Assembly (NCBI RefSeq): GCF_001646785.1
Contig: NZ_LRRH01000055.1
Location: 1-53,444 of the forward strand
Length of the DNA stretch: 53,444 bases
Direction: 5' to 3'
Source of the DNA: Rhodococcus phenolicus
GTDB taxonomy: Bacteria > Actinomycetota > Actinomycetes > Mycobacteriales > Mycobacteriaceae
The position numbers and the translations under genes were made by a program. Positions 5,947 through 52,757 of this stretch are shown here, one piece after another. The notes below the pieces were generated by a model, which had not been told where the DNA came from, searched no databases, and saw nothing but the letters and a program-made list of their open reading frames with translations. The stretch's first letter is position 1. The number at the start of each line of letters is the position of its first letter.

Positions 5947-7590
5947 ATGCCCCACCCGAGCACGGAACCGCTCGATCCGGGACGGATCGGCTCCCGGGCG
6001 CAGTTCGCCGATGCGCTGACCGAACTCCGCACCCGGGCCGGGTTGTCCGTGCGCGACGTCGTCGCGGCGTCCGGAGCCCTGCACGGCACGGTCGCCGGAT
6101 GGTTCGCCGGCCGGCACCTGCCGACGACAGCGAGCGCTCCCGCTCTCGCCGCAGTGCTCGCCGCGTGCGGGATCGCCGATCCTGCCGACGTCGCCGCGTG
6201 GCAGGCCGCCGCCGGCCGCGCCCGGCAGGCCGCGCGTCGTCGTACCGACCTGACCGCCGTGCCGTACCGGGGATCGGCACCGTTCCGAGAAGCGGACGCC
6301 CCGTGGTTCTTCGGGCGCGACGATCTCACCGCTGAACTACTCGCCCGTGTCCGTGCCGCGACCACCGGAGCCTCCGGCCGGGTGACCCTTGTGATCGGAC
6401 CTTCCGGTGCCGGGAAATCCTCGCTGCTGCGCGCCGGGCTGGCCGCCGCTGCCGCCACCGACGCCGATCTCGCGGCGTGGCGGCCCACCGTCGTCACCCC
6501 GGCGGGCATCGGTGTGCCCGCGCTCGTCGCAGCCCTCACCGGCCCCGGACCGTCGGTGCTCGTCGTCGACCAGTTCGAGGAACTGTGGACGCACTGTGTG
6601 CCCGGCGATCGTGCGGCGGCCCTCGCCGCGCTGGCGGCCGGCCGCGGTGTCGTGGTGGTGCTCGGTTTGCGGGCGGACTTCTGCCCCGCAGCCGCGCGCG
6701 AACCGGTTCTGCTGCCGATCCTCGCGGCGGACCCGCTCGTCGTCGGTCCGCTGAGCGGAGCCGACCTCGAAACCGTCGTCGTCGCACCGGCGGAGAAGGC
6801 CGGTGCCACCGTGTCCGACGACCTGGTCCGCGTTCTGCTCGCCGACCTCACATCGCGCACCGCCCGCACGGCAACGGATCCGGGCACGCTGCCGTGGCTG
6901 TCGCACGCGCTGCTCGGAACCTGGCAGCAGGCTCGTCGCCGCACCCTGACCGTCGCGGATTATCTGGCCACCGGTGGTGTCTCCGGCGCCGTGCAGCAGA
7001 GCGCCGAGGAGGTCTACGCGGAGCTGAGCCCGGAACAGCAGATGCTCGCCCGGCGCATCTTCCTGCGGTTGGTCAACGTCGACGACGAGACCCAGACGCG
7101 GCGCCGCACTCCGCGGAGCGAACTGGTGATCGGCGACAGTGCCCGAGTCGCTTCGGTCGTCGATCGGTTCGTCGCGCGCCGGCTGCTCACCGTCGACGAG
7201 GGCACCGTGCAGTTGTCCCACGAGGTGCTGCTCACCGCATGGGAACGGCTGCGCGAATGGATCGAGTCGGACCGCGCCGCCCTGGGTGTGCACCGACGTC
7301 TGACCCACGCCGCGCGAGTATGGCAGGACAGTGGACGAGACACCGGCGCGCTCCTCGCCGAGGGCCGGTTCGACCTGTTCGAGGAGCGGGCCGGCGATCG
7401 GCGGAATCTCCTCACTCCCCTCGAAATCGAGTTCGTCGAAGCCGGTCTTCGGCATCGCGACCGGACCGCCCGCTCCGAACAGCGCCGGACGAGAATGCTG
7501 CGGGGTCTCCTCGGCGTTCTGTCCGTGGTCGCCGTGACGGCTGCGGCCGCCGCGGTCGCGTCCGTTCCGCAGTCTGCCCGGTCGAGGTGA
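5947..7590 (+). CDS. HTH-STAND NTPase membrane protein lacking WD40 repeats
   Basis: A 547-residue signalling NTPase. An N-terminal HTH resembling the Xre type (about 15-60) is followed by a STAND-type P-loop ATPase. Walker A is GPSGAGKS (151-158) and Walker B is VVDQFEELW (about 206-214). A winged-helix-like region comes next, and one C-terminal membrane segment (LLGVLSVVAVTAAAAAV) ends about ten residues before the stop. Actinobacterial relatives usually continue into a long WD40 propeller after this segment. Here the frame stops and a convergent gene begins 24 bases later. The ATG at 5947 has GAAAGGA 6 bases upstream. It may be a natural short form or a remnant that lost its sensor. Confidence 0.8.
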   Translation: MPHPSTEPLDPGRIGSRAQFADALTELRTRAGLSVRDVVAASGALHGTVAGWFAGRHLPTTASAPALAAVLAACGIADPADVAAWQAAAGRARQAARRRTDLTAVPYRGSAPFREADAPWFFGRDDLTAELLARVRAATTGASGRVTLVIGPSGAGKSSLLRAGLAAAAATDADLAAWRPTVVTPAGIGVPALVAALTGPGPSVLVVDQFEELWTHCVPGDRAAALAALAAGRGVVVVLGLRADFCPAAAREPVLLPILAADPLVVGPLSGADLETVVVAPAEKAGATVSDDLVRVLLADLTSRTARTATDPGTLPWLSHALLGTWQQARRRTLTVADYLATGGVSGAVQQSAEEVYAELSPEQQMLARRIFLRLVNVDDETQTRRRTPRSELVIGDSARVASVVDRFVARRLLTVDEGTVQLSHEVLLTAWERLREWIESDRAALGVHRRLTHAARVWQDSGRDTGALLAEGRFDLFEERAGDRRNLLTPLEIEFVEAGLRHRDRTARSEQRRTRMLRGLLGVLSVVAVTAAAAAVASVPQSARSR

Positions 7591-33315: not shown

Positions 33316-33995
33316 TAGGGCTCGAACCGGTAGCCGCGTCCCGCTTCGGTGATCAGATGCCGGGGACGTGCCGGTTCGGGTTCGAGCTTGTGGCGCAGTT
33401 GCGCGAGATAGATACGGAGATAGTGCGTTTGATCGACATAGGTGGGACCCCACAACTCGGTCAGCAACTCTCGTTGCCCGACGAGCTTGCCGCGGTTGCG
33501 GACCAGCATTTCGAGCATCCCCCACTCCGTCGGTGTCAGATGCACCGGCGCGCCGTCCCGGGTGACCTTCTTCGCCGCGAGATCGACGACGAAATCGTCC
33601 GTCTCGACAACGGGGTCGGACGAATCCGGTACCGCGGTCCCGCGGCGGACGGCCGCCCGGATACGCGCGAGGAACTCCTCCATCCCGAACGGCTTCGTCA
33701 CGTAGTCGTCGGCGCCGGTATCGAGCGCGGCGACCTTGTCGGCCGAGTCGGTCCGTGCGGACAGCACGATCACCGGGGCGGTGCACCAGCCCTTCAACCC
33801 CGCCAGCACCTCGATGCCGTCGAGATCGGGCAACCCCAGATCCAGCACGATCACATCGGGGTGCCGCTGCGCGGCCGCGCGCAGGGCCCCTGCACCGTCG
33901 GCGGCGGTGATCACCTCGTAGCCGCGGGCCGTGAGGTTGATGCGCAACGCCCGCAGGATCTGTGGTTCGTCGTCGACGACGAGGATGCGGGTCAC
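33315..33995 (-). CDS. kdpE: Two-component response regulator KdpE
   Basis: OmpR-family response regulator (226 residues) that activates kdp expression. The receiver has acidic residues VVDDE, phospho-acceptor Asp52 (IVLDLGLPD) and Lys101 (VTKPFG). The C-terminal winged helix shows HLTPTEWGMLEMLVRNRGKLV and THYLRIYLAQLRHKLE. The GTG start overlaps the kdpD stop by 4 bases (GTGA). It is the last assigned kdp gene, perhaps followed by a coupled small membrane protein. Confidence 0.96.
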   Translation of the reverse strand: MTRILVVDDEPQILRALRINLTARGYEVITAADGAGALRAAAQRHPDVIVLDLGLPDLDGIEVLAGLKGWCTAPVIVLSARTDSADKVAALDTGADDYVTKPFGMEEFLARIRAAVRRGTAVPDSSDPVVETDDFVVDLAAKKVTRDGAPVHLTPTEWGMLEMLVRNRGKLVGQRELLTELWGPTYVDQTHYLRIYLAQLRHKLEPEPARPRHLITEAGRGYRFEP

Positions 33996-36514
33996 GGGTG
34001 TTCCTTCGCGGGCGCGGCGAGTTCGACGATCACGGTGGTACCGCCGCCGGGGGTGTCGGCGGTTGCGATGGTACCGCCCATCGCCTCGACGAATCCGCGA
34101 GCGACGGTCAGTCCCAGCCCCGCGCCACCGGTGGTGTGCCGGTCGCCGGTGCGGGGAAACGTGGCGAAGACATCGTCCTCGTGCTCGAGCCCCGGACCGG
34201 AATCGGCGACGGTGATGGTGACGCGTTCGTTCGTGGTGTCCGCCTCGACGCGGATCGGTCCGGTCGGGGCGTAGCGCAACGCGTTGTCGAGCAGGTTGGC
34301 CAGGACCCGTTCCAGGAGAGCGGCGTCCGCGTCGGCCATGATGTCGGCGACGTCGATTTCGACCCTTTCGCGGATGGCGCGGACGACCTCGGGGCCCCCA
34401 CCGGACAGTCCGGCGAGCGCGCCGTGCACGACCTCGTCGAGATAGACGGGCGCCGGGACCGGTGTGACCACCCCGGCGGCGAGCCGGGACGAGTCGAGGA
34501 GGTTCGCCACCAGCCGGGTGAGCTGATCGGTGGACTCCTCGATGGTCGCGAGCAGTTCCGCGGTGTCCTCGGCGGAGAACTCGATGTCCGTGCTGCGCAG
34601 GCTCGACACCGAGGCCTTGACGGCTGCGAGCGGGGTGCGCAGGTCGTGGCCGACGGCGGAGAGCAGCAGCCGCCGCATCCTGTCGGTCTCGCTCAGGGCG
34701 GAGGCGCGGGCGGCTTCGGCGGCGAGTTCCTGTTGCCGGACCAGCGCGGCGGCCTGACCTGCCACGGCGGTGAGGACCCGGCGGTCCCGGGCGTGGAGCC
34801 GAGGTCCGCCGAGAAGAAGGGTGTAGGGGCTGCCTTCCACATCGCAGACGGTATCGGCGGCCTCGGGAGTCGTCGGTGGCACCGAACCGGCGGTTCCCAG
34901 CACGATCGGTGGACCGCTGTCGGCGCGGACCAGGCTCACCCCACGCTGCGTGTACGTTTCCCGGACCTTCTCGAGCAGGCGCGGGACATCCGCACCGCGC
35001 AGCACGGCCCCGGCGAACATCGCGAGCAACTCCGCTTCCCGGGACGCCAGCCGGGCTTCGCGGCTGCGCGCGGCCGCGGCATCGACGAGTGCGGCGACCG
35101 CGACGGCGATCACGAGCAGCACCACGGTGGTGACGAAATTGTCCGGTTGCGCGATGGTGAAGCTGTAGAGCGGCTCGGTGAAGAAGAAGTTGAGCAGCAG
35201 CCCGGACAACAGTGCCGCCACGATCGCCGGGCCGATGCCGCCGAACAACGCCACGGCCAGGACGACGACGAAGAACAGGGCGTTCTGCCCGGCGACGCCG
35301 GTGAGCCGATCGACCCCGGCGAGGAGGCCGGTGGCGCCGAGCGGAATGAGGAACGCGGCGATCCACGACTGCACCCGCCGGTCGCGCCGGCCACCCAGCG
35401 CCACCCGGGGTGGGGCAGCGGTGTGCTCGTGGGTGACCATGTGCACGTCGATCTTCCCGGATTCGCGGACCACGGCCGTGCCGATGCCTTCGTCGACGAT
35501 CCGCGCCCACCGTGATCGCCGTGACGTGCCGATCACCAGCTGCGTCGCGTTGACCTCCCGCGCAAAATCCAGCAACGCGCCGGGTACGTCGTCTCCGACC
35601 ACGCTGTGGATACTGGCACCCAGGCTCGTCGCCAGCGCCCGTACCGGCCCCATTCGCGGCGCGGCCACCCCCGCCAGCCCGTCACCGCGCACCACGTGCA
35701 CGACCAGCAGCTCGGCGCTGGCCTTGGCCGCGATCCGGCTGGCTCGTCGCACCAGCGTGTCCGATTCCGGTCCGCCGGTCACCGCGACGACCACGCGCTC
35801 GCGGGCCTCCCACGTCGCGGTGATCGCGTGCTCACCGCGGTACTTGGCCAGCGCGACATCGACCTGGTCGGCGAGCCATAGCAACGCGATCTCCCGCAGC
35901 GCGGTCAGGTTGCCTTCCCGGAAGTAGTTCCGCAGCGCGGCGTCGACCTTCTCAGGGGCGTAAACGTTGCCGTGCGCAAGCCGCCGCTGCAACGCCTGCG
36001 GGGTGATGTCGACCAGTTCGACCTGCTCGGCGCGGCGCACCACCTCATCGGGGATCGTCTCGCGCTGCACCACCCCGGTGATCTGCTCGACCACGTCGTT
36101 GAGCGAGGCGAGATGCTGGATGTTGACCGTCGAGAGCACGTCGATCCCGGCGTCGAGGAGTTCGTCGACGTCCTGCCAGCGCTTCTCGTTCCGGCTGCCC
36201 GGCACGTTGGAGTGTGCGAGTTCGTCGACCAGCGCGACCGCCGGCCTGCGAGCCAGCACGGCATCGAGGTCCAGTTCCTCGAACGTCGTGCCCCGGTACT
36301 CGATCCGCTGCGGCGGAACGACTTCCAGGCCGCCGAGCTGCTCCGCTGTGCGAGTGCGCCCGTGGGTGTCCACGATCGCGACGACGACGTCGGCACCGCG
36401 GGCGATGCGCCGGTGGGCCTCGCCCAGCATCGCGTAGGTCTTGCCCGCACCCGGGGCGGCACCGAGGTAGATCCGCAGCTTTCCGCGCCGGGGCGGCAAA
36501 CCGGTAACACCCAT
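33992..36514 (-). CDS. kdpD: Sensor histidine kinase KdpD
   Basis: Potassium/turgor sensor kinase (840 residues). The N-terminal KdpD domain has Walker A GAAPGAGKT (18-26) and ALVDELAHSNVPGSRNEKRW. A universal-stress-like domain follows, then four membrane helices (from IAAFLIPLGATGLLAG), a GAF-like region, HisKA with SAVGHDLRTPL, and the HATPase with NLLDNALRYAP and GAGLGLTVARGF. The ATG at 36514 is preferred because AGGAGA lies just before it; a GTG at 36526 overlapping the kdpC stop is the alternative. It phosphorylates KdpE. Confidence 0.96.
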   Translation of the reverse strand: MGVTGLPPRRGKLRIYLGAAPGAGKTYAMLGEAHRRIARGADVVVAIVDTHGRTRTAEQLGGLEVVPPQRIEYRGTTFEELDLDAVLARRPAVALVDELAHSNVPGSRNEKRWQDVDELLDAGIDVLSTVNIQHLASLNDVVEQITGVVQRETIPDEVVRRAEQVELVDITPQALQRRLAHGNVYAPEKVDAALRNYFREGNLTALREIALLWLADQVDVALAKYRGEHAITATWEARERVVVAVTGGPESDTLVRRASRIAAKASAELLVVHVVRGDGLAGVAAPRMGPVRALATSLGASIHSVVGDDVPGALLDFAREVNATQLVIGTSRRSRWARIVDEGIGTAVVRESGKIDVHMVTHEHTAAPPRVALGGRRDRRVQSWIAAFLIPLGATGLLAGVDRLTGVAGQNALFFVVVLAVALFGGIGPAIVAALLSGLLLNFFFTEPLYSFTIAQPDNFVTTVVLLVIAVAVAALVDAAAARSREARLASREAELLAMFAGAVLRGADVPRLLEKVRETYTQRGVSLVRADSGPPIVLGTAGSVPPTTPEAADTVCDVEGSPYTLLLGGPRLHARDRRVLTAVAGQAAALVRQQELAAEAARASALSETDRMRRLLLSAVGHDLRTPLAAVKASVSSLRSTDIEFSAEDTAELLATIEESTDQLTRLVANLLDSSRLAAGVVTPVPAPVYLDEVVHGALAGLSGGGPEVVRAIRERVEIDVADIMADADAALLERVLANLLDNALRYAPTGPIRVEADTTNERVTITVADSGPGLEHEDDVFATFPRTGDRHTTGGAGLGLTVARGFVEAMGGTIATADTPGGGTTVIVELAAPAKEHP

Positions 36515-36522
36515 CTGTCTCC

Positions 36523-37179
36523 TCACGAACCGGTCGGTACGGCTGCCCCACCCTGGCAGCCGGGTGCCGTCAAGCCTAGTGCCACATTCAGTTCCGGCAC
36601 GTTCACACGCTCGACGCCGAGGAACCCGAGTTGCCTTCCCTCGGTGTGTTCGGCGACCAGTTCCCGGACCCGGTCCTCGCTCGTGCCGGTTTCCCGTGCG
36701 ACCCGCGGCACCTGCAATTCGGCGTAGGCGGGGGAGATGTGCGGGTCGATTCCGGACCCGGAGCCGGTGACCGCGTCGACCGGTACCCGATCGGGGGTGA
36801 CCTGTTCGCGTGCCGCGATCGCGGCACGACGCGCGTCGACGAAACCGGCGAGCACCTCGCTGCTCGGTCCCTGGTTGGACGGCAGAGCCGCCGCCGGGTC
36901 GCCCGGGGTGAAGGGGTCGTCGTCGGCGACGGACCCGACCACGCGCGGATGGAAGAAGGGGTCGGGTTGCCCGGGTGCGACCTGCGGGTCCACGCCGACC
37001 AGTCGGCTACCGACGACGCAGCCGTGCGCGTCGGTCAGCTCCGAACCCTCTGCAGTCGCGGTGCCCATCCGGCTCACCGCCCACACCGCCGCCGGATAGG
37101 CGACACCGGCGATGACGGTGAGCGCGATCAGCACGAGGAATCCCACGCGGAGCTGGCGGAGAAAATTCATCGAATACAT
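36523..37179 (-). CDS. kdpC: Potassium-transporting ATPase subunit KdpC
   Basis: KdpC (218 residues) has a single N-terminal helix (FLVLIALTVIAGVAYPAAVWAV) and a periplasmic-side domain with GSRLVGVD, PDPFFHPR, GSGSGIDPHISPAYAELQVPRVA and a QLGFLGVERVNVPELN tail, all family hallmarks. It stabilises the KdpFABC complex. It starts 6 bases after kdpB and overlaps the possible GTG of kdpD. Confidence 0.96.
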   Translation of the reverse strand: MYSMNFLRQLRVGFLVLIALTVIAGVAYPAAVWAVSRMGTATAEGSELTDAHGCVVGSRLVGVDPQVAPGQPDPFFHPRVVGSVADDDPFTPGDPAAALPSNQGPSSEVLAGFVDARRAAIAAREQVTPDRVPVDAVTGSGSGIDPHISPAYAELQVPRVARETGTSEDRVRELVAEHTEGRQLGFLGVERVNVPELNVALGLTAPGCQGGAAVPTGS

Positions 37180-37185
37180 TGCGCG

Positions 37186-39285
37186 TTACCCCATTCCAGG
37201 GATGAGTCGGACGACGAGGTCGATCAGCCAGATACCGATGAAAGGTGTGACGACACCACCGAGTCCGTACACGAGCAGGTTGCGTCCCAGCAGTGACGAC
37301 GCGCTCGCCGGGCGATAGCGAACACCCTTGAGCGCCAACGGGATCAACGCCACGATCACGAGTGCGTTGAAGATCACCGCCGAGAGGATCGCGGACTGCG
37401 GCGTCGCCAGGCCCATGATGTTCAGTCCTGCCAGCTGCGGGTAGATACCGCTGAACAGCGCTGGAAGGATCGCGAAGTACTTCGCCAGGTCGTTCGCGAG
37501 CGAGAAGGTGGTCAGGGCGCCGCGGGTGATCAACAACTGTTTGCCGATCTCGACGATCTCGATCAGCTTGGTCGGATCGGAATCGAGGTCGACCATGTTG
37601 CCGGCTTCCTTCGCGGCCGAGGTCCCGGTGTTCATCGCGACCCCGACGTCCGCCTGCGCGAGCGCGGGGGCGTCGTTGGTGCCGTCGCCGGTCATCGCGA
37701 CCAGCCGCCCGCCCTGCTGTTCGGCACGGATCAGCGCCAGCTTGTCCTCCGGGGTCGCCTCGGCCAGGAAGTCGTCCACTCCGGCCTCGCCGGCGATCGC
37801 CTTCGCCGTCAGCGGATTGTCACCGGTGATCATCACCGTGCGTATCCCCATCGCCCGCAGCTGCGCGAATCGTTCGGCCATACCGGGTTTGACGACGTCG
37901 GAGAGTTCCACGACACCGAGAACAGTTGCTGCTCCAGCGGAACCACGGGCGACCACGAGAGGAGTCCCGCCGCGCCGGGCGATGTCGGTGACGAGGTCGG
38001 TGACAGCTCCCGGCATCTCGACGTCGTGGTCCTGCATCCAGCGCGCGACCGCGTCGGCGGCGCCCTTGCGGATCCGGATCGGTGTGCTGTCGGCAGGGTC
38101 CACGGTGTCGAGCCCGCTCATCCGGGTCTGAGCGGTGAACGGGACGAACTCGGCGGAACGCTCGGCAGCCGACGGGCTGGGGTCCAGGTGGTAGCGCTCG
38201 GCGCACAGTTCGACGATGCTGCGGCCCTCCGGGGTGCCGTCCGCGAGACTGGACAGGCGTGCGGCAGCGGCGAGTTCGCTGTCGGCGACACCGGGTGCGG
38301 CGTGGAGCGCGGTGGCCCGGCGGTTGCCGAAGGTGATGGTGCCGGTCTTGTCCAGCAGCAGCGTGTCGATATCGCCTGCCGCCTCGACGGCGCGCCCGGA
38401 CATCGCCAGTACGTTGCGCTGGACCAGCCGGTCCATCCCGGCGATGCCGATCGCCGAGAGCAGCGCCCCGATCGTCGTCGGGATCAGGCACACCAGGAGG
38501 GCGATCAGTTCCACCGGTCCCTGTTCGGCACCGGCATACGCGCTCATCGGCCCGACCGCGACGACCGCGAGCACGAAGATGATCGTCAGTGCCGCGAGCA
38601 GGATGTTCAGGGCGATCTCGTTGGGTGTCTTGCGGCGGGCCGCGCCCTCGACGAGCGAGATCATCCGGTCGACGAACGTTTTCCCCGGCGGGGCGGTGAT
38701 CTGCACGACGATGCGATCGGACAGCACCGTGGTGCCCCCGGTCACGGCGCAGCGATCGCCCCCGGACTCGCGGATCACCGGTGCGGATTCGCCGGTGACG
38801 GCGGACTCGTCGACGGTCGCGACTCCGTCGATCACGTCGCCGTCACCGGGGATCACCTGGCCGGCCTCGACCACCACCAGATCCCCGACCTGCAGCTCGG
38901 TGGCAGGCACGGACACTTCGTGTCCGGAGTCGGTGACCCGGCGGGCGACGGTGTCCTGCTTGGCCTGCCGCAGGCTGGCGGCCTGTGCCTTGCCGCGACC
39001 CTCGGCGACGGACTCGGCGAGATTGGCGAACAGCACGGTGAACCACAGCCAGGCCGTGATCGACCAGGCGAACACGGTGGGTTCGAGGACCGCCGCGACA
39101 GTGGCGACGGCCGAGCCGACGAGCACGACGAACATCACCGGGTTCCGCGCCACGTGGCGCGGATCGAGTTTGCGGAACGCGCCCGGCAACGAATCCGCCA
39201 GCTGACGCGTACTGAACGCCCCACCCGCCACGCGGTGTGGACGGGTCGACGTGATCTCCCCGCCGGGACGAATGTCGAGGGTCAA
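37186..39285 (-). CDS. kdpB: Potassium-transporting P-type ATPase subunit KdpB
   Basis: Catalytic P-type ATPase of the Kdp pump (699 residues). It has TGES (164-167; the Ser there is the inhibitory phosphorylation site in E. coli), the phosphorylation motif DKTGT (Asp312), a KGA nucleotide motif ([10 protein letters not shown]) and [18 protein letters not shown]. The best start is TTG at 39285 with GGAG 8 bases upstream; the residues after it (TLDIRPGG) have no nearer ATG or GTG before conserved sequence. 58 bases separate it from kdpA. Confidence 0.96.
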
Positions 39286-39343
39286 CGAAGTATCTCCGTG
39301 ATCTGCGCCGCGAGGCGGCGGAACGAATGGTGGTGGCGGGCGG

Positions 39344-41044
39344 TCACTGAAGCGCCTCCGCGATCGGTCCCAGCGCCAGCGCCGGGAAGAAGGTCAGGGC
39401 CGCCACGAGGACGGTCGTGCCGGTCAGCAGACCCGCGAACGCGACACCCGTGGTGGGGAGTGTTCCCGCTCCGGCGGGGGTGCGACGCTGGGCCGCGAGG
39501 GAGCCGGCCAGGGCCAGGACGAACACGATCGGCAGGAACCGGCCGAGCAGCATGCACATGCCGAGGGACGACTGGAACCAGTCGCTGGTGACGGTGAGCC
39601 CGCCGAAGGCGCTGCCGTTGTTGTTCGACGCCGAGGCGAACGCGTACAGCACCTCGGAGAATCCGTGGATGGCGCCCGGCGTTCCGGGATCGCCGGAGTT
39701 GCCCAGGTAGCCGGTGGTCGATGACAGGATCACAGTGATCGCGGTGCCGGTCAGCACGAGCGCCGGCATCACCAGCACGCTGAGCGCCGCGAGCGTGATC
39801 TCGCGCCTGCCGAGCTTCTTGCCCAGGAACTCCGGTGTGCGGCCGACGAGGAGACCGCCGACGAACACCGCGATGATCGCGAGCACGAGCATGCCGTACA
39901 GGCCGGTGCCCACGCCGCCCGGCGCGATCTCGCCGAGCAGCATGTTCAGCAGCACGGCACCACCTCCGAGTGGGGACATGCTGTCGTGCGCGGAGTTCAC
40001 GGCGCCGGTGCTCGTGCCCGTGGTCGCGACGGCGAACAGCGCCGAACCCGGGATACCGAACCGGACCTCCTTGCCTTCCATCATCGCGCCGGCGGCGTTC
40101 GCCGCGACCCCCCGGACTCCGGACTCGGCGGCCAGCGTCACGGCCAGCAGGGTGCCGAACAGGGCGGTCATCACGGCGAGAACGGTCAGGCCCTGCTTGC
40201 GGTTGCCGATCATGGTGCCGAAGGTGCGGGTCAACGCGACCGGGATGAGCAGGATCGCGAGGATCTCCACGATGTTGCTGATCGGCGTCGGATTCTCGAA
40301 CGGGTGGGCCGAGTTCGCGGCCAGGATGCCACCGCCGTTGGTGCCGAGTTCCTTGATCGCCTCCTGCGACGCCACCGGGGCCAGCGCGGTGGTGAGCGCC
40401 TGCCCGTCGAGCCCGGTTGCGGTGAAACTGCTGCGGTACGACTGGATCACGCCCTGGCTCAGCAGGATCAGCGCGATCACGAATGCGAGGGGCAGCAGGA
40501 TCCGCAGGGTACCGCGGACGAGATCGACCCAGAAGTTGCCGATCTCACCGCCGCGACCGACCCGGACGAGACCGCGGATCAGAGCCACGGCCACACCCAT
40601 CCCGACTGCAGCGGACACGAAGTTCTGCACCGCGAGCCCCGCGGACTGGGTGAGGTGGCTCATCGTCGTCTCGGGGACGTAGGACTGCCAGTTGGTGTTG
40701 GCGACGAACGAGATCGCGGTGTTGAACGCGACTGCGGGACTGACCCCGCCGAGCCCGTTGCCGAGGGGGAGGACACCCTGGATACGTTGGAGCAGATACA
40801 GGAACAACGCGCTCGCCAGCGAGAAGCCGAGCACACTGACGGCGTAGCCGAACCAGGTCTGCTCGGATCGGGGATCGATTCGGCACAGCCGGTAGATCAG
40901 CGACTCGATCCGCAGGTCCTTCCACCGTGTGCCGGAGTCGGTGGTGTACACCCGCGCCATGTAGTCGCCGAGTGGAACGTATGCCAATGCGAGGACCGCG
41001 ACCACCAGCGCGATCTGTAGTCCCGCAGCAACAGCAGGATTCAT
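39344..41044 (-). CDS. kdpA: Potassium-transporting ATPase subunit KdpA
   Basis: K+-translocating subunit (566 residues) of the superfamily of K+ transporters. The four selectivity-filter segments are visible: [22 protein letters not shown] and [11 protein letters not shown] start at 41044, 7 bases after the kdpF stop. With KdpB, KdpC and KdpF it forms a high-affinity pump used at low external potassium. Confidence 0.97.
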
Positions 41045-44738: not shown

Positions 44739-45818
44739 TCACGGCACCGGTCGCCGTCCGACCGTACCGCCGGCGACGACAGCGGCGACCGTTTCCCGTG
44801 GGCTGCGGGCTCCGAGTACCGGCCCCGTTCCGCTCGCACCCGAGCGCATACCCTCGATGGTCTCGCGCCACACCTCCCGGCCGGGAACGACGGGAGACCA
44901 GCCGAGTTTCTGCCCGGCACGGCCGCAGTCGAGGAGCGGGGTGTCGTACATGAGGTCGATCCAACCCCCGTGCACCGGTTGCAGGTGCAGCTGCCAGGTG
45001 ACCTGTGCGAGGAAGCGCAGGGTGCGGCGCGACACCGGCCACGGCCGGGTCCCGAGGGACTCGACGACGTCCGTCGTGCGGACCGCGTCGGTGGCGGCCA
45101 GGTTCACCGATCCGGCGCCGGGGGCGAGGAGAGCGTGCTCGACTGCGGCGGCCACGTCCGTCGCGTGCACGGCGGGGAGTGCGACGGACGGATCGAGAGG
45201 CAGGACGGGCAGGTGACGCAGCGCCGCTGCCGGCATCCACGCCGGCAGCGCGTACCGGCGCAGCGCCGCTCCGGCAGCGGTCTGCCCGATCAGGCCCGGC
45301 CTCAGCACGGTGACTTCGGGTGCCCCGGCCGTGCTCGCGACCGCGGCGACGATCCTCTCCGCCGTGACCTTGTCCATGCTGTATTGCGACGTGGGAACCC
45401 CTGTCGCCGGCCATGATTCGTCTACCTGCCGGCCGTGCGCCCCGGGTGCGTAGACGGCGGCCGACGACATGTGCACGAGATGAGGGACACCCGCTCGTGC
45501 CGCGGCGACTGTCACCGCGCGAGTGCCGTCGATCGCGGTGCGCCGCAGCAGGTCCGCTCGATGCGACGGCTGGAATCCCCACGCGAGGTGGACGACGGCG
45601 TCGGCGGTGTCGAAGACCCGGCACAACATCTCCTCTGCGCCGGAATCTCCCACATCGATCGCATGCCAGCATGCATGTCGATACGGCCGGACCGCAGGCG
45701 GGACCCGGCGCGCGACAGCGACGATCTCGTACGCGTCGCGCTCGGTGGACAATCGCGTGAGGAGTGCGCTTCCCACGTTGCCGCTGGCGCCGGTGACGAC
45801 GATACGGAGCGGTGCCAT
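44739..45818 (-). CDS. NAD-dependent epimerase/dehydratase (extended SDR)
   Basis: A 359-residue extended short-chain dehydrogenase. The Rossmann motif is VTGASGNVGSAL (8-19), then DVGDSGAEEMLC, VVHLAW and the active site SSAAVYAP with YSMDK. First of three genes; 34 bases separate it from the SRPBCC gene. The ATG at 45818 was chosen over a TTG at 45851, though neither has a strong ribosome site. It faces the NorD/NorQ operon across a regulatory gap. Confidence 0.83.
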   Translation of the reverse strand: MAPLRIVVTGASGNVGSALLTRLSTERDAYEIVAVARRVPPAVRPYRHACWHAIDVGDSGAEEMLCRVFDTADAVVHLAWGFQPSHRADLLRRTAIDGTRAVTVAAARAGVPHLVHMSSAAVYAPGAHGRQVDESWPATGVPTSQYSMDKVTAERIVAAVASTAGAPEVTVLRPGLIGQTAAGAALRRYALPAWMPAAALRHLPVLPLDPSVALPAVHATDVAAAVEHALLAPGAGSVNLAATDAVRTTDVVESLGTRPWPVSRRTLRFLAQVTWQLHLQPVHGGWIDLMYDTPLLDCGRAGQKLGWSPVVPGREVWRETIEGMRSGASGTGPVLGARSPRETVAAVVAGGTVGRRPVP

Positions 45819-45880
45819 TCCACGGAGGTACCCGCGGCGCCGCCGTTCCAACCCGTTCCGGACCTCCGGCCGGGAAGATG

Positions 45881-45894
45881 TTGACTTCAGTCAA
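45881..45894. promoter_or_regulatory. FNR/Dnr-type box TTGAC-TTCA-GTCAA
   Basis: A perfect match to the CRP/FNR-superfamily palindrome TTGA(C/T)-N4-(G/A)TCAA, 62 bases before the epimerase start. Between it and the second box are GTCACAAAAATTG and GTCACAGAAATTG, a direct repeat 30 bp apart (45913 and 45943), and AGAAATT-GACG-AATTTCT (45949-45966). The whole gap is AT-richer than its surroundings. Confidence 0.6.
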
Positions 45895-46011
45895 TCAAAA
45901 CTGCGTCCATCTGTCACAAAAATTGTGCCGCTCTAATGGATCCGTCACAGAAATTGACGAATTTCTGCAGCGAGTCGGCGTCATCGAGCCTAGCGTCCCT
46001 CCGGTCATGAA

Positions 46012-46025
46012 TTGACTCGAGTCAG
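46012..46025. promoter_or_regulatory. Second FNR/Dnr-type box TTGAC-TCGA-GTCAG
   Basis: This matches the box at 45881 in nine of ten defined positions and has a perfect TGACTCGAGTCA core. It lies 39 bases before the first gene of the NorD/NorQ operon. The protein that binds both is not in the window. Confidence 0.55.
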
Positions 46026-46063
46026 TCCTGGGCGGGACCGCCCGCCCGAGTGGAGGTGGAACG

Positions 46064-46162
46064 ATGTGGCTCGACATTCTGCGGCTGATCGTGGCGTGGG
46101 GCTCGATGGGCGCGGTCATCGCGTTCTGGTACTGGGTGTTCTCCAACATCGGAACCTTCTAG
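46064..46162 (+). CDS. 32-residue membrane protein, first gene of NorD/NorQ operon
   Basis: ATG at 46064 behind the excellent site GGAGGTGGAACG encodes MWLDILRLIVAWGSMGAVIA followed by FWYWVFSNIGTF, a single Trp-rich helix. It ends 43 bases before the NorD-like gene. The strong ribosome site and the hydrophobic product argue that it is real, perhaps a small subunit of the membrane complex encoded downstream. Confidence 0.65.
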   Translation: MWLDILRLIVAWGSMGAVIAFWYWVFSNIGTF

Positions 46163-46205
46163 GGACGGCCGGGGTGGACACAGGATCCGGTGGAAGAGCC
46201 GGCAC

Positions 46206-47735
46206 ATGAGTGCGGTGGGTGTCTCACCGCGGACGATCGAGCGGACCTGTGCCCTGACCGCGGTGGCGTTCTCCGAAGGGCGGAGACGCGATGCGCGTCT
46301 CGTATCCGGTGACCGGCGCAGCTTCGGCCTGACCGGCACGCTGCGGGTGGTTCACGTTCCGTACCCGCCTCCCGTGCCCGACTGGCGTGTCCGGACGCTG
46401 ACGTGCGGTGTGGCACTGCAATGTGCACCGTCGAAGGACCGGATCGCCCGGTATCCGTTGCACGAGCTGTCGGCCCGCGAGCGCGCGGCGCTCACCGTCG
46501 TGGAAGGCAACGTCGCGCTGGGGTGGGTGAGCACCCGTTGGCCGGGGTTGTTGCCGGACCTGATCCGGGTGCTTCCTGGGCTCGAACCGATCGACGGGGA
46601 CACCGACAGCGCCGACATGCTGCGGATGACCGACACGCTGGTGCGGTCGCGTGAACCGATCACGCCGCATCCGGTTCTCGGCCGCCTGCCGCTGACGGAA
46701 CGGCCTCGTACCGGCCTGGGTGCCGCGGTCCGGCGCATGTACGGACGGATGCCGTGGACCTCCCTCCGGTCCGATTCGGTGCGCCTGATGTCCATCCCGG
46801 TCGGTGGTGAGGGTGGTGTCCGCAACCCGAATCTGCCGCCACCGAGCAGGCCGGAGGACGAGGAGATCGAGATCCGGCCGGACGAACGGATCGGTATTCC
46901 GTACCCGGAGTGGAACGCATGGCGTGAGGCCTTTCTGCCCGATCACGTGGCGGTGCTGGAAACCCGGGCACCGGCCGGATCCGCCGTGCCGATTCCGGTC
47001 GTCACCGACGTGCGCCGCTGGTTCGAGCGAAACACCCACCGTGCCATGACAAATCGTCTCGAGGATGGCTCGGACCTGGACATCGACGCGTACCTCGACC
47101 ATCACGTCGACACGATCACCGGGCACGCGTCCGACCCCCGGATCTTCCGTGACCTGCTCCCGAGTTCCCGCGACGTCACCACTGCGCTGCTGCTCGACGG
47201 CAGCTCGTCCCTCGGCGTTCACCGCGGCACGGTGTTCGCACTGGAACTCGCGTGCGCCGACGCGCTGTCCCACGCGATGATGCTCGCCCGCGAACGTCAC
47301 GGGATCTTCGTGTTCAGTGGCAATACCCGGCATCGCGTGGAAGTGCTCTGCCTCAAGGACTTCGACGACCGGCACCTCGTCGTGCCGAGCACGTCGGGTC
47401 TGAGGACCGGGGGGTACACCCGGCTCGGGGCACCGCTCCGGCACCTGACCCGCCGGTTGCTCGAACGGCCGTCGGAACGGCGGCTGCTGCTCGTCATCGG
47501 AGACGGCTTGATGTCCGACGAAGGGTACGAAGGCCGATACGCCTGGGCCGACGTCGCCCACGCGGTGGGGGAAGCCGAGGAGGCAGGAGTGTGCATGTAC
47601 TACATCGGAGTCGGCCCGGCACGGGTCGATCCGCTGCCGGAGGTGTTCGGGCCCGGCCGGTCCCAGCGCATCCAGCGGGTCGAGGACCTCCCGCGGGTGC
47701 TCGCCCACGTGCATCGGGAACTGGTGACGGCATGA
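46206..47735 (+). CDS. NorD-like VWA-domain protein
   Basis: A 509-residue protein of the NorD/CoxE type. The C-terminal von Willebrand A domain has a MIDAS motif DGSSS (331-335), then FVFSGNTRHRVEV, SGLRTGGYTRLGAPLRHLTRRL and LLLVIGDG, as in NorD of nitric oxide reductase clusters. NorD works with the AAA ATPase NorQ to insert non-haem iron into NorB. The ATG at 46206 has GGAAGAG upstream. Its stop overlaps the NorQ-like start (ATGA). No norB or norC is present, so the client enzyme may differ. Confidence 0.88.
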   Translation: MSAVGVSPRTIERTCALTAVAFSEGRRRDARLVSGDRRSFGLTGTLRVVHVPYPPPVPDWRVRTLTCGVALQCAPSKDRIARYPLHELSARERAALTVVEGNVALGWVSTRWPGLLPDLIRVLPGLEPIDGDTDSADMLRMTDTLVRSREPITPHPVLGRLPLTERPRTGLGAAVRRMYGRMPWTSLRSDSVRLMSIPVGGEGGVRNPNLPPPSRPEDEEIEIRPDERIGIPYPEWNAWREAFLPDHVAVLETRAPAGSAVPIPVVTDVRRWFERNTHRAMTNRLEDGSDLDIDAYLDHHVDTITGHASDPRIFRDLLPSSRDVTTALLLDGSSSLGVHRGTVFALELACADALSHAMMLARERHGIFVFSGNTRHRVEVLCLKDFDDRHLVVPSTSGLRTGGYTRLGAPLRHLTRRLLERPSERRLLLVIGDGLMSDEGYEGRYAWADVAHAVGEAEEAGVCMYYIGVGPARVDPLPEVFGPGRSQRIQRVEDLPRVLAHVHRELVTA

Positions 47736-48556
47736 ACGACAAGGCCCTGTACTACGCGTCCGGCAACGAAGTGGAACTCTTCGAACATTCGTTCCGGCAA
47801 CGGCTTCCGGTGATGCTGACCGGACCGACGGGTTGCGGCAAGACTCGCTTCGTCGAGCACATGGGCGGACTTCTCGGCCGGCCAGTCGTCACCGTCGGCT
47901 GCCACGACGACCTCACCAGTTCCGACCTGGTGGGCAGGTTCATGGTGTCCGGCGGTGATGTCGTGTGGCTCGACGGGCCGTTGACGAAGGCGGTCAGGGA
48001 CGGCGCGATCTGCTACCTCGACGAAGTGGTCGAGGCCCGCCACGATTCGCTGGCCGTCCTGCACTCGCTGACCGACCATCGCCGCACCCTCTATCTCGAC
48101 CGGGCGGGCGAGGTGGTGCCGGCCCCGGCTTCCTTCATGCTGGTGTGTTCCTACAACCCGGCCTATCGGAGCTCGCTCAAGGAACTGAAACCGTCCTTCC
48201 GGCAGCGCTTCGTCACGCTGCCGCTGGGGTACCTGCCACCCGAGCGGGAGGCCGACGTGCTCGTTGCCGAAACCGGCGTCGACCGTGCCGTCGCCGAACG
48301 GCTCGTCGCGTGCGCGGTGAGCATCCGCACGGCCGACGACGTCTTCCACTTCGAACCGCCGTCCACCCGGGTGCTCGTCACCGCGGCGCTGCTCGTCGTC
48401 GCCGGTTCGAGCGAGATCGACGCCGCCGAAGCGTCGATCCTCGCGCCGCTGAGCACCGACGGGGCGATCACCGGGGGCCTGCGGGAGGTCGCCGCCGCGA
48501 CACTGCTCGCCGCGGACGAACCGAACATCCGCCCCGAACCGAAGGAGACCCGATGA
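47732..48556 (+). CDS. NorQ/CbbQ-type MoxR AAA+ ATPase
   Basis: A 274-residue AAA+ ATPase of the MoxR group, close to NorQ: GNEVELFEHSFRQRLPVML, Walker A GPTGCGKT (31-38), CHDDLTSSDLVGRF, Walker B CYLDE (Asp97, Glu98) and SYNPAYRSSLKELKPSFRQRF. Such ATPases with a VWA partner remodel and metallate enzymes. Overlaps by 4 bases on both sides tie it tightly to the NorD-like and 43-residue membrane protein genes. Confidence 0.92.
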   Translation: MNDKALYYASGNEVELFEHSFRQRLPVMLTGPTGCGKTRFVEHMGGLLGRPVVTVGCHDDLTSSDLVGRFMVSGGDVVWLDGPLTKAVRDGAICYLDEVVEARHDSLAVLHSLTDHRRTLYLDRAGEVVPAPASFMLVCSYNPAYRSSLKELKPSFRQRFVTLPLGYLPPEREADVLVAETGVDRAVAERLVACAVSIRTADDVFHFEPPSTRVLVTAALLVVAGSSEIDAAEASILAPLSTDGAITGGLREVAAATLLAADEPNIRPEPKETR

Positions 48557-48684
48557 ACGAGCAGGACCGGCGCCGCAGACGCGGCCTCATCGCGTTCCAG
48601 ATCTTCGCGTACGGATTCCTACTGTCGCAGTTCCTGATACAGCTGTACATGTCGGTGGTGCGCGGCTGGTGGGGGGCACCGTGA
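48553..48684 (+). CDS. 43-residue membrane protein
   Basis: MNEQDRRRRRGLIAFQIFAY, then GFLLSQFLIQLYMSVVRGWW and GAP: a very basic N-terminus, one helix and a Trp-rich end. GAAGGAGA lies 5 bases before the ATG. It overlaps both neighbours by 4 bases, which is good evidence of real translation. Probably a small subunit or assembly factor. Confidence 0.75.
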   Translation: MNEQDRRRRRGLIAFQIFAYGFLLSQFLIQLYMSVVRGWWGAP

Positions 48685-49394
48685 ATCTTCCCGCCTTCAC
48701 CCGGCGACGCGCCGACACCACGCCCGGAGCGGGGTACGACGAACACCAGGAGGAGTCCCGTCGCGCGCAACGCGCCGCCGACCACTGGCTGACGGCCGGA
48801 ACACTGCTCATGGGTACTCTCGTGCTGGGCATCGTCGGCCTGCCGATCTTCCTGCGCGGTGTGTGGCTGCAACGCCGGGCACAACGGTCCGGGTTGTCGG
48901 TGCGGCCCGTGATCGTCACGCTCATCGGCTATCTCGTCATCCTCGACGCGGCGCTCAACAGCATCGGGTGGGCCCTGGACCTGGTCGCGAACCACACCCT
49001 GATCAACCGGGTGGTCCTCACCGCGTGGGGCAACATGTTCGACGCCGGGTACTTCTGGCACTACAACGAACTGTGGATCGGTGGTGCGGCCGGGCCGGGG
49101 GAGAAAGGCTGGGAGGTCGCCCTGATGCTCACGGTGTTCCCCATGCGGATCGCCGCGGCCATCGCGTTCCTCCAGATGAAGCGGTGGGGACACCAGTGGA
49201 TGATCGTCACCTGCTGGATGGGACTCGTCATCTGGGTCGGCTACACGTTCAACATGACCATGTATGCCGACGTCCGGTACGACGGGGTGGTGCTGCCCGT
49301 GATCGGCTGGTGGCTGTACGACATCTTCTACATCACCCCGTTCCTGGCGATTCCGTACCTGCACACCGTCAATCGAGAGATCTTCTCCGACTGA
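48681..49394 (+). CDS. Five-helix membrane protein of unknown family
   Basis: A 237-residue membrane protein. After a charged N-terminus (about 1-35) come five likely helices (from TLLMGTLVLGIVGLPIFL, VTLIGYLVILDAALNSIGW, ALMLTVFPMRIAAAIAFL, MIVTCWMGLVIWVGYTF and VLPVIGWWLYDIFYITPFL). The loop before helix 3, FDAGYFWHYNELW, and later NMTMYADVRYD hold His, Glu, Asp and Tyr that could bind metal. It starts with a GTG overlapping the previous stop (GTGA). It could be the client of the NorQ/NorD pair; I do not recognise the family. Confidence 0.7.
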   Translation: MNLPAFTRRRADTTPGAGYDEHQEESRRAQRAADHWLTAGTLLMGTLVLGIVGLPIFLRGVWLQRRAQRSGLSVRPVIVTLIGYLVILDAALNSIGWALDLVANHTLINRVVLTAWGNMFDAGYFWHYNELWIGGAAGPGEKGWEVALMLTVFPMRIAAAIAFLQMKRWGHQWMIVTCWMGLVIWVGYTFNMTMYADVRYDGVVLPVIGWWLYDIFYITPFLAIPYLHTVNREIFSD

Positions 49395-49430
49395 GATGTG
49401 TCCCGAGCCGGACGCAGAAGGGAGAACCCC

Positions 49431-49823
49431 GTGAAGAAGACCGAATCGGACGGCAAGGTCGCGGACGACCTGCCACTCGGCACCACGCCCGCATTCGCAC
49501 GGATGCACAAGTGGATCAAGCGCGGTGTGTTCGTGTGCCTGTTCGCGCTCGTCGTGGAGGGCGCCTTCACGGTACCGGCGCTCGCGATCTGGTACGGCTG
49601 GCCGCAACTGTCGTTCCAGGAGATCTGCAGCGAACTCATGAAGGTCCGCTACTCGGACGACACGATGGAATGCGAGTACCCCTATCCGCTGTTCGGGCCG
49701 CCCGAGGGCGCGGCGGGGAAGGACACCGCCGAGGACGAGTGGGGGATCCAGCCCACGCCCGGATGGGACCGCATCGGCTTCCGTGAACTCGTCCACAATC
49801 GGGACGAGCGGGAGGGGCGTTAG
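49431..49823 (+). CDS. Single-helix membrane protein ending the NorD/NorQ operon
   Basis: A 130-residue protein: charged N-terminus, one helix ([20 protein letters not shown]) and an extracytoplasmic part with [20 protein letters not shown] (two Cys) and a Trp/Pro-rich end. The GTG at 49431 has AAGGGAG 7 bases upstream. 36 bases separate it from the five-helix gene. It faces the tandem repeat. Probably a partner of that protein. Confidence 0.68.
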
Positions 49824-49861
49824 AAACGGGTGGGCTCCCGGCCGGAGTCCGGCCGGGGGCC

Positions 49862-49981
49862 ACCGAGCGATCAGCGCGCGGTGGTGCCGAGCGATCAGCT
49901 CGCGGTGGTGCCGAGTGATCAGCTCGCGGTGGTGCCGAGCGATCAGCTCGCGGTGGTGCCGAGCGATCAGCTCGCAGCGGC
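49862..49981. repeat. Five 24-bp tandem repeats between convergent genes
   Basis: Five head-to-tail copies (49862, 49886, 49910, 49934, 49958) of GCCGAGCGATCAGCTCG + CGGTGGT. Copies 2 and 4 are identical, copy 3 has one change, and copies 1 and 5 have a few. Each holds CGAGC-GATCA-GCTCG, a small hairpin. The last copy contains the stop codon of the aldolase gene, so the array seems to be an expansion of that gene's 3' end. Confidence 0.92.
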
Positions 49982-50977
49982 GACGAGGTCGAGCGCGATG
50001 TCGACGATCATGTCCTCCTGGCCGCCGACGAGCTGGCGGCGACCGACCTCGAGCAGGATGGTGCGGACGTCGATGCCGTACCGCTCGGAGGCGGCTTCGG
50101 CGTGACGGAGGAAGCTCGAGTACACGCCGGCGTAGCCGAGCGTGAGGGTCTCGCGGTCCACGCGCACCGGCCGGTCCTGCAGCGGGCGGACGATGTCGTC
50201 GGCGGCGTCCTGCAGCGCGAACAGGTCGGAGCCGTGCTCCCAGCCGTTGATGTTCGCGACCGCGATGAACGGTTCGATCGGGCAGTTGCCGGCGCCTGCA
50301 CCGTGTCCGGCGAGGGACGCGTCCACACGGTAGACGCCCTCCTCGACGGCGACGACCGAGTTGGCCACCGACAGCGAGAGGTTCTCGTGGGCGTGGATGC
50401 CGATCTCGGTGCCCTCGTCGAGAACGTCACGGTAGGCGCGGATGCGGTCGCGGACACCGTTCATGGTGAGGCGGCCACCCGAGTCGGTGACGTACACGCA
50501 GTGCGCGCCATACGATTCCATGAGTTTGGCCTGCTCGGCGAGCTTGGCCGGCTCGGCGAGGTGGCTCATCATGAGGAAGCCGGAGACGTCCATGCCGAGT
50601 TCACGTGCGGTGGCGATGTGCTGGGCGGACACGTCGGCCTCGGTGCAGTGCGTCGCGACGCGGACCGAGCGCACACCCAGGTCGTAGGCGTGGCGCAGTT
50701 CGGCGATCGTGCCGACGCCGGGGAGCAGCAGCGTCGTGAGCCGTGCGTTCTCGATGTTGGCCGCGGCGGCCTCGATCCACTCCCAGTCGGTGTTGCTGCC
50801 GGGGCCGTAGTTCACCGAGCCGCCGGCGAGGCCGTCACCGTGGGCGACCTCGATGGCGTCGACACCGGCGGCGTCGAGCGCGGCGACGATGCGTCCGACG
50901 TCTTCGGGGGAGATGCGGTGACGGATGGCGTGCATGCCGTCACGGAGGGTGACGTCCTGGATGAAGAGCTTGGTCAT
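49967..50977 (-). CDS. 4-hydroxy-2-oxovalerate aldolase
   Basis: Class II pyruvate aldolase (336 residues) that splits 4-hydroxy-2-oxo acids into pyruvate and an aldehyde; equivalents are HsaF, BphI and DmpG. It shows TLRDGMHA (metal Asp13), [21 protein letters not shown] and HAHEN (His195, His197). It forms a channelling complex with the acetaldehyde dehydrogenase encoded just upstream, which it overlaps by 4 bases (ATGA). Last gene of a three-gene operon. Confidence 0.93.
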
Positions 50978-51948
50978 GCGGACACCTCGGAGTTCGGGCG
51001 GATGGCCATGCGCTCGGCCGCACGCAGCGCCGCCGAGGTCATGATGTCGAGATTGCCTGCGTACGCGGGCAGGTAGTGGGCCGCGCCCTCGACTTCCAGG
51101 AACACCGAAACCTGGTGCGTCACGGGGGCGTCGCCTGCGAGGGTGTGAACCGGCCGGTCCTCGGGGACCGGGGTGATCTGCACTTCCTGCTTGAGGCGGT
51201 AGCCGGGAACGTAGGTCGCGACCTTGGCGACCATGTCCTTGACGGAGGTGCGGATGCGCTCGTGCGTCTCCTCGGACGGATCGCCGATGAGGCAGAACAC
51301 GGTGTCGCGCATGATCAGCGGCGGCTCGGCAGGGTTGAGGATGATGATCGCCTTGCCGCGGCCGGCGCCGCCGACCTTCTCGATCGCGTGGGACGTGGTC
51401 TCGGTGAACTCGTCGATGTTCGCGCGCGTGCCGGGGCCGGCGGACTTCGACGAGATCGACGCGACGATCTCGGCGTACGGGACCGGGGTGACGGTCGAGA
51501 CGGCGGAGACGATCGGGATGGTGGCCTGGCCGCCGCACGTGACCATGTTGACGTTGTGCGCCGACAGGTGCTCGTCCAGGTTCACCGCGGGCACCACGAA
51601 CGGGCCGATGGCGGCGGGGGTGAGATCGACGAGCAGCTTGCCCAGCGGAGCGAGCTTCTCGGCGTTGGCGACGTGGGCCTTGGCGCTCGTGGCGTCGAAG
51701 ACGATTCCGATCTCGTCGAAATTGTCCATGGCGATGAGGCCGTCGACGCCCTCGTGGGTGGTGGGCACACCCAGGCGCTTCGCGCGGGCGAGACCGTCGG
51801 ATTCGGGGTCGATACCGACCATCGCACCCATTTCGAGCGTGTCGCTCAGGCGGATCACCTTGATCATCAGGTCGGTGCCGATGTTGCCCGAGCCGATGAT
51901 GGCGACCTTGGTCTTCTTGCCGGCCGGTGCCGGGGTCGTGTCAGTCAC
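50974..51948 (-). CDS. Acetaldehyde dehydrogenase (acylating)
   Basis: Acylating aldehyde dehydrogenase (324 residues) that turns acetaldehyde or propanal from the aldolase into acyl-CoA; equivalents are HsaG, BphJ and DmpF. Rossmann motif [11 protein letters not shown] and catalytic Cys138 (MVTCGGQAT) are present. The GTG at 51948 has GAAGGAGG upstream and overlaps the hydratase stop (GTGA). The order hydratase-dehydrogenase-aldolase is that of hsaE-hsaG-hsaF in M. tuberculosis cholesterol degradation. Confidence 0.93.
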
Positions 51949-52757
51949 TGTTCCTCCTTCGAGAACGTCGCGGTCACCGAGCCGAGGCCGGTGATGTCGG
52001 CACGGACGACGTCGCCTGCGGCGAGCGGCGCCATGGGGCCGAGTGCACCGGAGAGGACGACCTGTCCGGCGCGCAGGGGTTCGCCGAACTCGCGTGCGGT
52101 GCGCGCGAGCCAGGACAGGGCGTTGAGGGGGTCGCCGAGGCATGCCGCACCGTTGCCGGTGGACACGGTCTCGCCGTTGATCGACATGGTCATCTCGGTT
52201 TCGATGGGCTCGAATTCGTCGAGTGTGACCTGCCGGGCGCCGAGTACGTAGACGCCGCTCGATGCGTTGTCGGCGACCGTGTCGGCGAACTTGATGTCCC
52301 AGTCGGCGACGCGGCTGTCGACGATCTCGAGGGCGGCGACGGCATAGGCGACCGCGCCGCGGACCTGCTCGACGTCGAGGGGTCCGTCGGCCAGGTCCTG
52401 CGAGAGCACGAACGCGACCTCGGCCTCGGCCTTCGGCTGCAGCAGCCGCGAGATCGGAATGACGGTGTCCTCGTCGTAGACCATGTCGTCGAACAGGACG
52501 CCGAAGTCGGGGCGGTCGACGCCGAGCTGCGCCTGGACGGCGGGGGAGGTCAGGCCGATCTTGCGGCCGACGACCGTCGCGCCGGCCGCGAGCTTCGCGT
52601 CCGTGAGGTGCTTCTGCACCTCGTAGGCGACCGCGATGTCGGTCGCGCCGATGAGGTCACGGATGGGTGCGCAGGGCACCCCGGTGGCCGCGGCGGTCAG
52701 CAGCCGCTCTGCGGCCTCGCCGATCGCGGCGGTGTCGGTTTCGATTCTCTGCGACAT
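51945..52757 (-). CDS. 2-keto-4-pentenoate hydratase
   Basis: A 270-residue hydratase of the MhpD/HsaE/BphH family, which hydrates 2-hydroxypenta-2,4-dienoate-type products of meta-cleavage. Motifs: [43 protein letters not shown] and [26 protein letters not shown] in blocks. The first gene of the operon; the ATG at 52757 has only a weak ribosome site. Whether the pathway serves steroid rings or aromatic compounds cannot be decided here. Confidence 0.92.

Follow-up and report, generated by a model that had tools for sequence, protein, structure and literature searches.

NorQ/NorD pairs and a six-gene operon in Rhodococcus phenolicus

To our knowledge, clients have been established for very few machines of the NorQ/NorD type, in which an AAA+ ATPase (NorQ) works with a protein carrying a VWA domain (NorD). 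For the nitric oxide reductase cNOR, the excerpted text of PMC13036017 states that FeB insertion requires both NorQ and NorD and that the linker of NorD is required; in the mechanism proposed there, NorQ rotates the VWA domain of NorD, stretches its linker and opens the client. The same excerpt terms CbbQO a highly homologous complex with activase function. Here, we describe a 53,444-nt contig of R. phenolicus (genome of 6.28 Mb in 232 contigs), referred to as a whole as the window, in which such a pair is encoded in a six-gene operon with four membrane proteins, m32, m43, tm237 and p130. Given that NorD co-occurs with tm237 and that extra copies of the membrane genes are found without the pair, the m32-m43-tm237-p130 module is a likely NorQ/NorD client.

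All six genes lie on the forward strand. The operon opens with m32 (46064-46162), which is preceded by GGAGG and encodes a 32-aa one-helix protein with a conserved FWYW...GTF end, followed by norD (46206-47735; NorD-like VWA protein, 509 aa), norQ (47732-48556; NorQ-like MoxR AAA+ ATPase, 274 aa), m43 (48553-48684; 43-aa one-helix protein with a basic N-terminus), tm237 (48681-49394; five-helix membrane protein, 237 aa) and p130 (49431-49823; 130 aa, one helix), the last two with GTG starts. Four-base overlaps join norD to norQ, norQ to m43 and m43 to tm237. By hydropathy, tm237 has five hydrophobic segments (residues 35-65, 69-103, 143-166, 174-192 and 203-222), and m32, m43 and p130 have one apiece. 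This layout, with its three overlaps and its helix counts, had been described in an initial annotation of the window and is borne out, and the single helix of p130 stands as well; the two cysteines given for that protein are in fact three, C36 within the helix and C66 and C81 in the tail that follows, each of them conserved in 95% or more of the 80 aligned rows. The tail with its conserved C66 and C81 would lie outside the membrane. Scans of 45800-50000 found no sigma-70 promoter or terminator.

NorQ carries an AAA_5 domain (1.3e-34, 119.6 bits; cut-off 22) and a CbbQ_C domain (4e-19, 69 bits; cut-off 20.6), the latter being the single CbbQ_C match in the genome, and among solved structures NorQ proteins are its closest relatives (9qh4, 5.8e-78). 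Residues 230-508 of NorD align with residues 353-645 of the solved NorD 9qhd_G (6.9e-34), and the DxSxS motif is kept as DGSSS, so that domains, solved relatives and VWA motif all agree with the pair type first assigned. Compared with norCBQDEF of the cNOR system, both chaperones are true homologues, the presumed client is likewise a membrane protein and small membrane proteins are encoded alongside, whereas norB and norC are missing from the operon, the presumed client being tm237/p130/m32/m43, and the present NorD is about 130 aa shorter (509 aa vs 638-646 aa), with residues 1-229 unaligned to the solved protein. The AAA+/VWA architecture and the CbbQ_C domain are shared with the Rubisco activase CbbQ/CbbO (CbbQ 6l1q, 1.5e-69) and other MoxR-VWA pairs, but the client in the present operon would be a membrane protein. 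No known client is encoded in the operon, and neither Pfam nor NCBIfam has a family model for its membrane proteins, in keeping with their earlier description as an orphan complex of no recognised family.

Conservation, co-occurrence and copy number

When relatives of tm237 were sought in one genome per species, 314 stretches were confirmed, the best 80 of which (L002-L081), i.e., the closer relatives, come from Nocardia, Mycobacterium, Mycolicibacterium, two Mycolicibacter, one Gordonia and one Aldersonia. The six-gene set is conserved among these relatives: norD and norQ are present in 76 of the 80 loci, all six genes in 76, and m32, m43 and p130 in 79 each. Since both microprotein genes are so widely retained and vary most between copies at the third codon position (0.37 for m32 and 0.40 for m43, compared with 0.15-0.25 at the first two positions), the two ORFs are, on this codon evidence, true genes and not chance.

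Within the family, tm237 occurs in 50 of 401 genomes (7 of 31 genera). A close NorD (E ≤ 1e-60; weaker matches uncounted) was found in 50 of these 50 genomes, one copy each, although the match in G036 spans only residues 10-354, and in 0 of 30 genomes taken as lacking tm237. These controls are a non-random set: G210 and G294 were listed without a tm237 match, and the other 28 (G612-G623 and G645-G660) are absent from the 50 positives, their having been searched for tm237 being judged from their handle numbers. The link between the pair and the membrane genes that the initial annotation had proposed is supported; the opposite pattern, a pair without the membrane genes in most relatives, was looked for through the NorD search of the 50 and 30 genomes and did not appear.

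Copy number varies. At least two tm237 genes are found in 51 of the 80 loci, and the extra copy lies upstream of m32 in all but one (L052) of eight two-copy loci examined, namely in L011, L012, L023, L033, L036, L057 and L066. L029 encodes tm237 alone, on a 6.6-kb contig, and L007, L008 and L035 carry the four membrane genes but lack norD/norQ, the pair residing at other loci in N. bovistercoris NEAU-351 (L007 and L035; pair at L028) and N. aurea SYSU K10002 (L008; pair at L025). Further tm237 modules without norD/norQ are found at L120, L121, L122, L129 and L130 and as one of the two modules in L124, while L128 has a norQ remnant (6639-6869; 77 aligned residues, 66%) between m32 and m43 of an extra module copy. 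Given these pair-less modules and the remnant, it appears that one chaperone pair serves several module copies in trans and that the pair has been lost from redundant copies.

As tm237 was found in 0 of 17 relatives within the source genus and the closest proteins among the best 80 loci are from Nocardia (87-92%), the operon was probably acquired by the source genome. A profile search of the phylum found tm237 in 6 of 296 genomes, source genome included, and reached outside the source class in G181 (E 1.4e-62), which is itself the one positive among 249 genomes of its own class. The G181 genes encode, in this order, an 86-aa protein whose tail has two cysteines, a 46-aa homologue of m32 that ends in NWMMSHFGTF, a helix protein like p130, tm237 (39% identical), NorD (36%), NorQ (55%) and an APH/EcKL-type kinase; next to them lie what we take, by reading of the sequence, to be Mce/YrbE-type genes and genes for a P450 and a Baeyer-Villiger-type monooxygenase. 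In Mycobacterium branderi, a plasmid encodes a 36% tm237 homologue, with no norD/norQ annotated within 24.7 kb and, by reading, two small helix ORFs upstream; its neighbours are acyl-CoA dehydrogenase, thiolase, mycofactocin-coupled short-chain dehydrogenase (SDR), aldehyde dehydrogenase and Rieske genes.

Residues and predicted fold of tm237

The invariant residues of tm237 are D89, N93, W97, D100, H105, D121, E141, D197 and R199. Both distant homologues, those of G181 and M. branderi, have D89, N93, W97, D100, D121, E141, K142, R156, K167 and R199 in common, while H105 and D197 are present in the NorQ/NorD-linked G181 protein but not in that of M. branderi, which, with one protein each, is only a hint. 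The His/Glu/Tyr-rich loop (FWHYNELW), to which the initial annotation had looked for the metal, fares differently: H127 and E130 are replaced by D and A in the pair-linked G181 homologue and by N and R in the M. branderi homologue, which has no pair nearby. Because neither distant homologue retains these residues, a metal site at WHYNELW was rejected as a general site.

Sequence searches found no solved relative of tm237, a distant homologue giving only a lipoprotein match (E 0.16). A first structure model (27 sequences, pLDDT 68.7) had no useful fold match among the matches listed, and the closest fold to a better predicted model is that of EBP/TMEM97, so that tm237 can tentatively be called EXPERA-like. 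EBP and TMEM97 are not known to need a metal. A match of tm237 to a non-metal family, which the initial annotation had named as contrary to its proposal of a metal enzyme, is thus partly what is seen, in the fold of the better model, the Pfam hit remaining sub-threshold: PF05241 (EXPERA) matches 0 of the 27 members of the tm237 alignment A1 at E ≤ 1 and one homologue only (L093/L089; 19.3 bits, cut-off 25.7). A profile-profile comparison through a bacterial EBP-like family (A7) was not significant.

The comparison with the EXPERA superfamily (EBP sterol isomerase, TMEM97/sigma-2 receptor) also takes in topology and polar residues. EXPERA proteins have five helices with the N-terminus outside and the C-terminus inside, and tm237 has five segments, whose sidedness was judged by eye from basic loops only. 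The EBP polar residues 76, 80, 108 and 111 (numbering of PMC4263179, in its excerpted text) and D89, N93, D121 and Y124 of tm237 are similarly spaced at one offset, a match that is not significant, random placement reaching it in about 7% of trials and offset 87 scoring equally. For the catalytic residues His76, Glu80, Asp108 and Glu122 of EBP, the spacing suggests D89, N93 and D121 (with the same 7% chance for this first block) and, by eye after an insertion, E141; His76 and Glu80 would then be Asp and Asn in tm237. Unlike the EXPERA proteins, moreover, tm237 comes with its present partners and with NorQ/NorD.

AveC-like proteins beside a second NorQ

In mycobacteria, AveC-like (PF17198) membrane proteins can adjoin a NorQ: within a flank of about 1.5 kb, one was found in 6 of the 9 close AveC-like loci. 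Such loci with a second NorQ, 48-51% identical to that of the operon, include L099, L100, L101, L103, L108, L109 and L023 (12433-16706, M. asiaticum); in the last, a NorD and an epimerase follow the second NorQ, directly beside p130 of the present system. AveC-like proteins thus resemble tm237 in being membrane proteins beside NorQ and in a weak profile similarity (48-50 columns, P 0.008-0.018; reversed controls 0.09-0.30), but they form another sequence family, and m32, m43 and p130 gave no hit at E ≤ 1e-4 beside the AveC loci from the genome search. A global alignment gave nothing, and PF17198 has no match in the source tm237 or the A1 members at E ≤ 1; a relation between the two may be taken as a lead only. 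An EBP-like protein, L139 (G134:C1:3283907-3284653), is encoded about 1 kb from the AveC-like gene L099 (G134:C1:3282162-3282863) with its NorQ neighbour, and the mycobacterial EBP-like family that includes it has weak PF05241 matches in 4 of 7 members scanned.

Regulation and gene neighbourhood

Upstream of the operon lies a strand-neutral palindrome, TTGACTTCAGTCAA (45881..45894), with a second, likewise strand-neutral copy, TTGACTCGAGTCAG (46012..46025), about 40 bp before m32. The pattern TTGACTNNAGTCA has three matches in the window (two being both strands of the 45881 site) against 0.01 expected, TTGACTNNAGTCA[AG] is present in 45 of the 80 loci (permuted-arm controls: mean 0.05 loci, maximum 3), and a looser pattern in 52. 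The palindrome is a probable operator of a TetR-family regulator, TTGACTNNAGTCAA being the candidate binding site of the TetR homologue, and a TetR-family gene (representative scanned) is found in 73 of 84 clustered sequences. Around a TetR homologue at G000:C199, no such palindrome was found within 19 kb, a genome-wide scan not having been made. That protein is 53% identical to the operon-linked Nocardia TetR; next to its gene in this locus (L152, 6196-9397) are a COX3/NorE-like gene (PF00510, 8.7e-15), a gene for a 97-aa helix protein of NorF/COX4-like appearance and one for a 250-aa membrane protein that matches nothing in Pfam.

A scan of 131 of 189 neighbours picked from 45 loci comprised 39 TetR proteins, 15 SDRs, 13 P450s, 9 DAP_DH_C, 8 APH and 7 EcKL proteins, 5 epimerases and 3 AMP-ligases. 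The nearest solved P450s of one neighbour P450 include CYP125-type enzymes, steroid C26-monooxygenases, CftA and P450cin. Together, neighbour families and solved P450s point to lipid, steroid or terpenoid chemistry, with no named substrate. Divergent from the operon, the window has an epimerase/3beta-HSD-like, a polyketide-cyclase-like (just below the cut-off) and a FAD oxidoreductase gene, while meta-cleavage-type genes for a 4-hydroxy-2-oxovalerate aldolase, an acetylating acetaldehyde dehydrogenase and a 2-keto-4-pentenoate hydratase-like protein (49967-52736) converge with the operon. Between p130 and the aldolase gene lies a tandem array (49863-49975) of a 24-base unit in 4.7 copies (96% matches). 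Farther away, kdpA, kdpB, kdpC and the gene for the KdpD sensor kinase occupy 33992-41044.

Proposed function and alternative explanations

In the reading that we prefer, with roughly even confidence, the operon encodes a four-subunit membrane enzyme together with a NorQ/NorD machine dedicated to activating it, metal insertion being the most likely means. tm237 would be the catalytic core and m32, m43 and p130 further subunits of a single physical complex. NorQ would form an ATP-driven ring, into which NorD would plug via its VWA domain while gripping the membrane complex from the cytosol, as the homology with the cNOR pair suggests. ATP turnover would then open the complex so that a pocket is completed, most likely by the insertion of a metal ion. 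This pocket is placed near the outer membrane face, in an EXPERA-like bundle and among the invariant residues D89 to R199 named above, with the Cys tail of p130 lying over it; the substrate would probably be a polycyclic isoprenoid, a steroid or another lipid-like molecule, and expression would be under the control of a TetR-type repressor. Metal insertion is slightly favoured because the nearest relatives insert metal and because several invariant D, E and H residues are predicted to lie within or close to the outer ends of helices. A more specific version, a new class of metal-dependent membrane enzyme of Actinomycetota in which an EXPERA-type pocket has been converted to a metal site charged by NorQ/NorD, the two microproteins hold the complex together, the substrates are steroid- or terpenoid-like and the AveC/NorQ loci form a parallel branch, is speculative and rather unlikely to hold in full.

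Weighing against metal insertion, the EBP-like predicted fold argues for remodelling without metal, in which NorQ/NorD would assemble the small subunits or release a blocked active site, in the way that CbbQ/CbbO acts on Rubisco, and the client would be a metal-free EXPERA-type isomerase of steroid or terpenoid rings. We regard this as a serious possibility, if short of an even one. The EBP/TMEM97-like model and the PF05241 match, the spacing of the tm237 polar residues relative to EBP 76, 80, 108 and 111 (PMC4263179, excerpt), the loss of the His/Glu loop and the activase function of the highly homologous CbbQO (PMC13036017, excerpt) all fit it; yet, tm237 would have Asp and Asn in place of EBP His76 and Glu80, the spacing is matched by chance in about 7% of trials and by an unrelated offset, and the nearest solved NorQ/NorD relatives belong to cNOR. 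It is improbable, in our view, that the membrane complex is no enzyme but a transporter, lipid carrier or sensor whose state NorQ/NorD sets: the six-gene operon has no reductase or ferredoxin gene and TMEM97, a fold neighbour, is known as a receptor, but P450, SDR, AMP-ligase and kinase-like neighbours suit catalysis better, as do the invariant acidic residues in membrane segments. That the pair acts on a nitric oxide reductase or some other enzyme elsewhere and sits in the operon by chance is very unlikely. The pair is named for its nitric oxide reductase role, and small membrane genes, norE and norF, accompany norCB (PMC13036017, excerpt); however, the genome has only two matches to heme-copper oxidase subunit I (COX1 family), one aa3-type and the other not classified (norC was not searched for), and the 50/50 versus 0/30 co-occurrence of NorD with tm237 largely contradicts such a role.

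Implications

In the open PMC papers, no description of the operon or of AveC with NorQ was found among the matches listed. The complex is probably a new client for a chaperone pair of the MoxR-VWA kind and may be an undescribed membrane enzyme activated by the pair. It is common in mycobacteria and Nocardia, yet lacks a family model, and proteins as small as its two smallest subunits often escape gene callers. If the EXPERA-like fold is true, a sterol-isomerase fold would be linked to a bacterial system of several subunits that probably works in lipid metabolism. As a compact, closely paired actinobacterial client, the complex would offer a route to what MoxR-VWA machines recognise and to whether they always insert metal.

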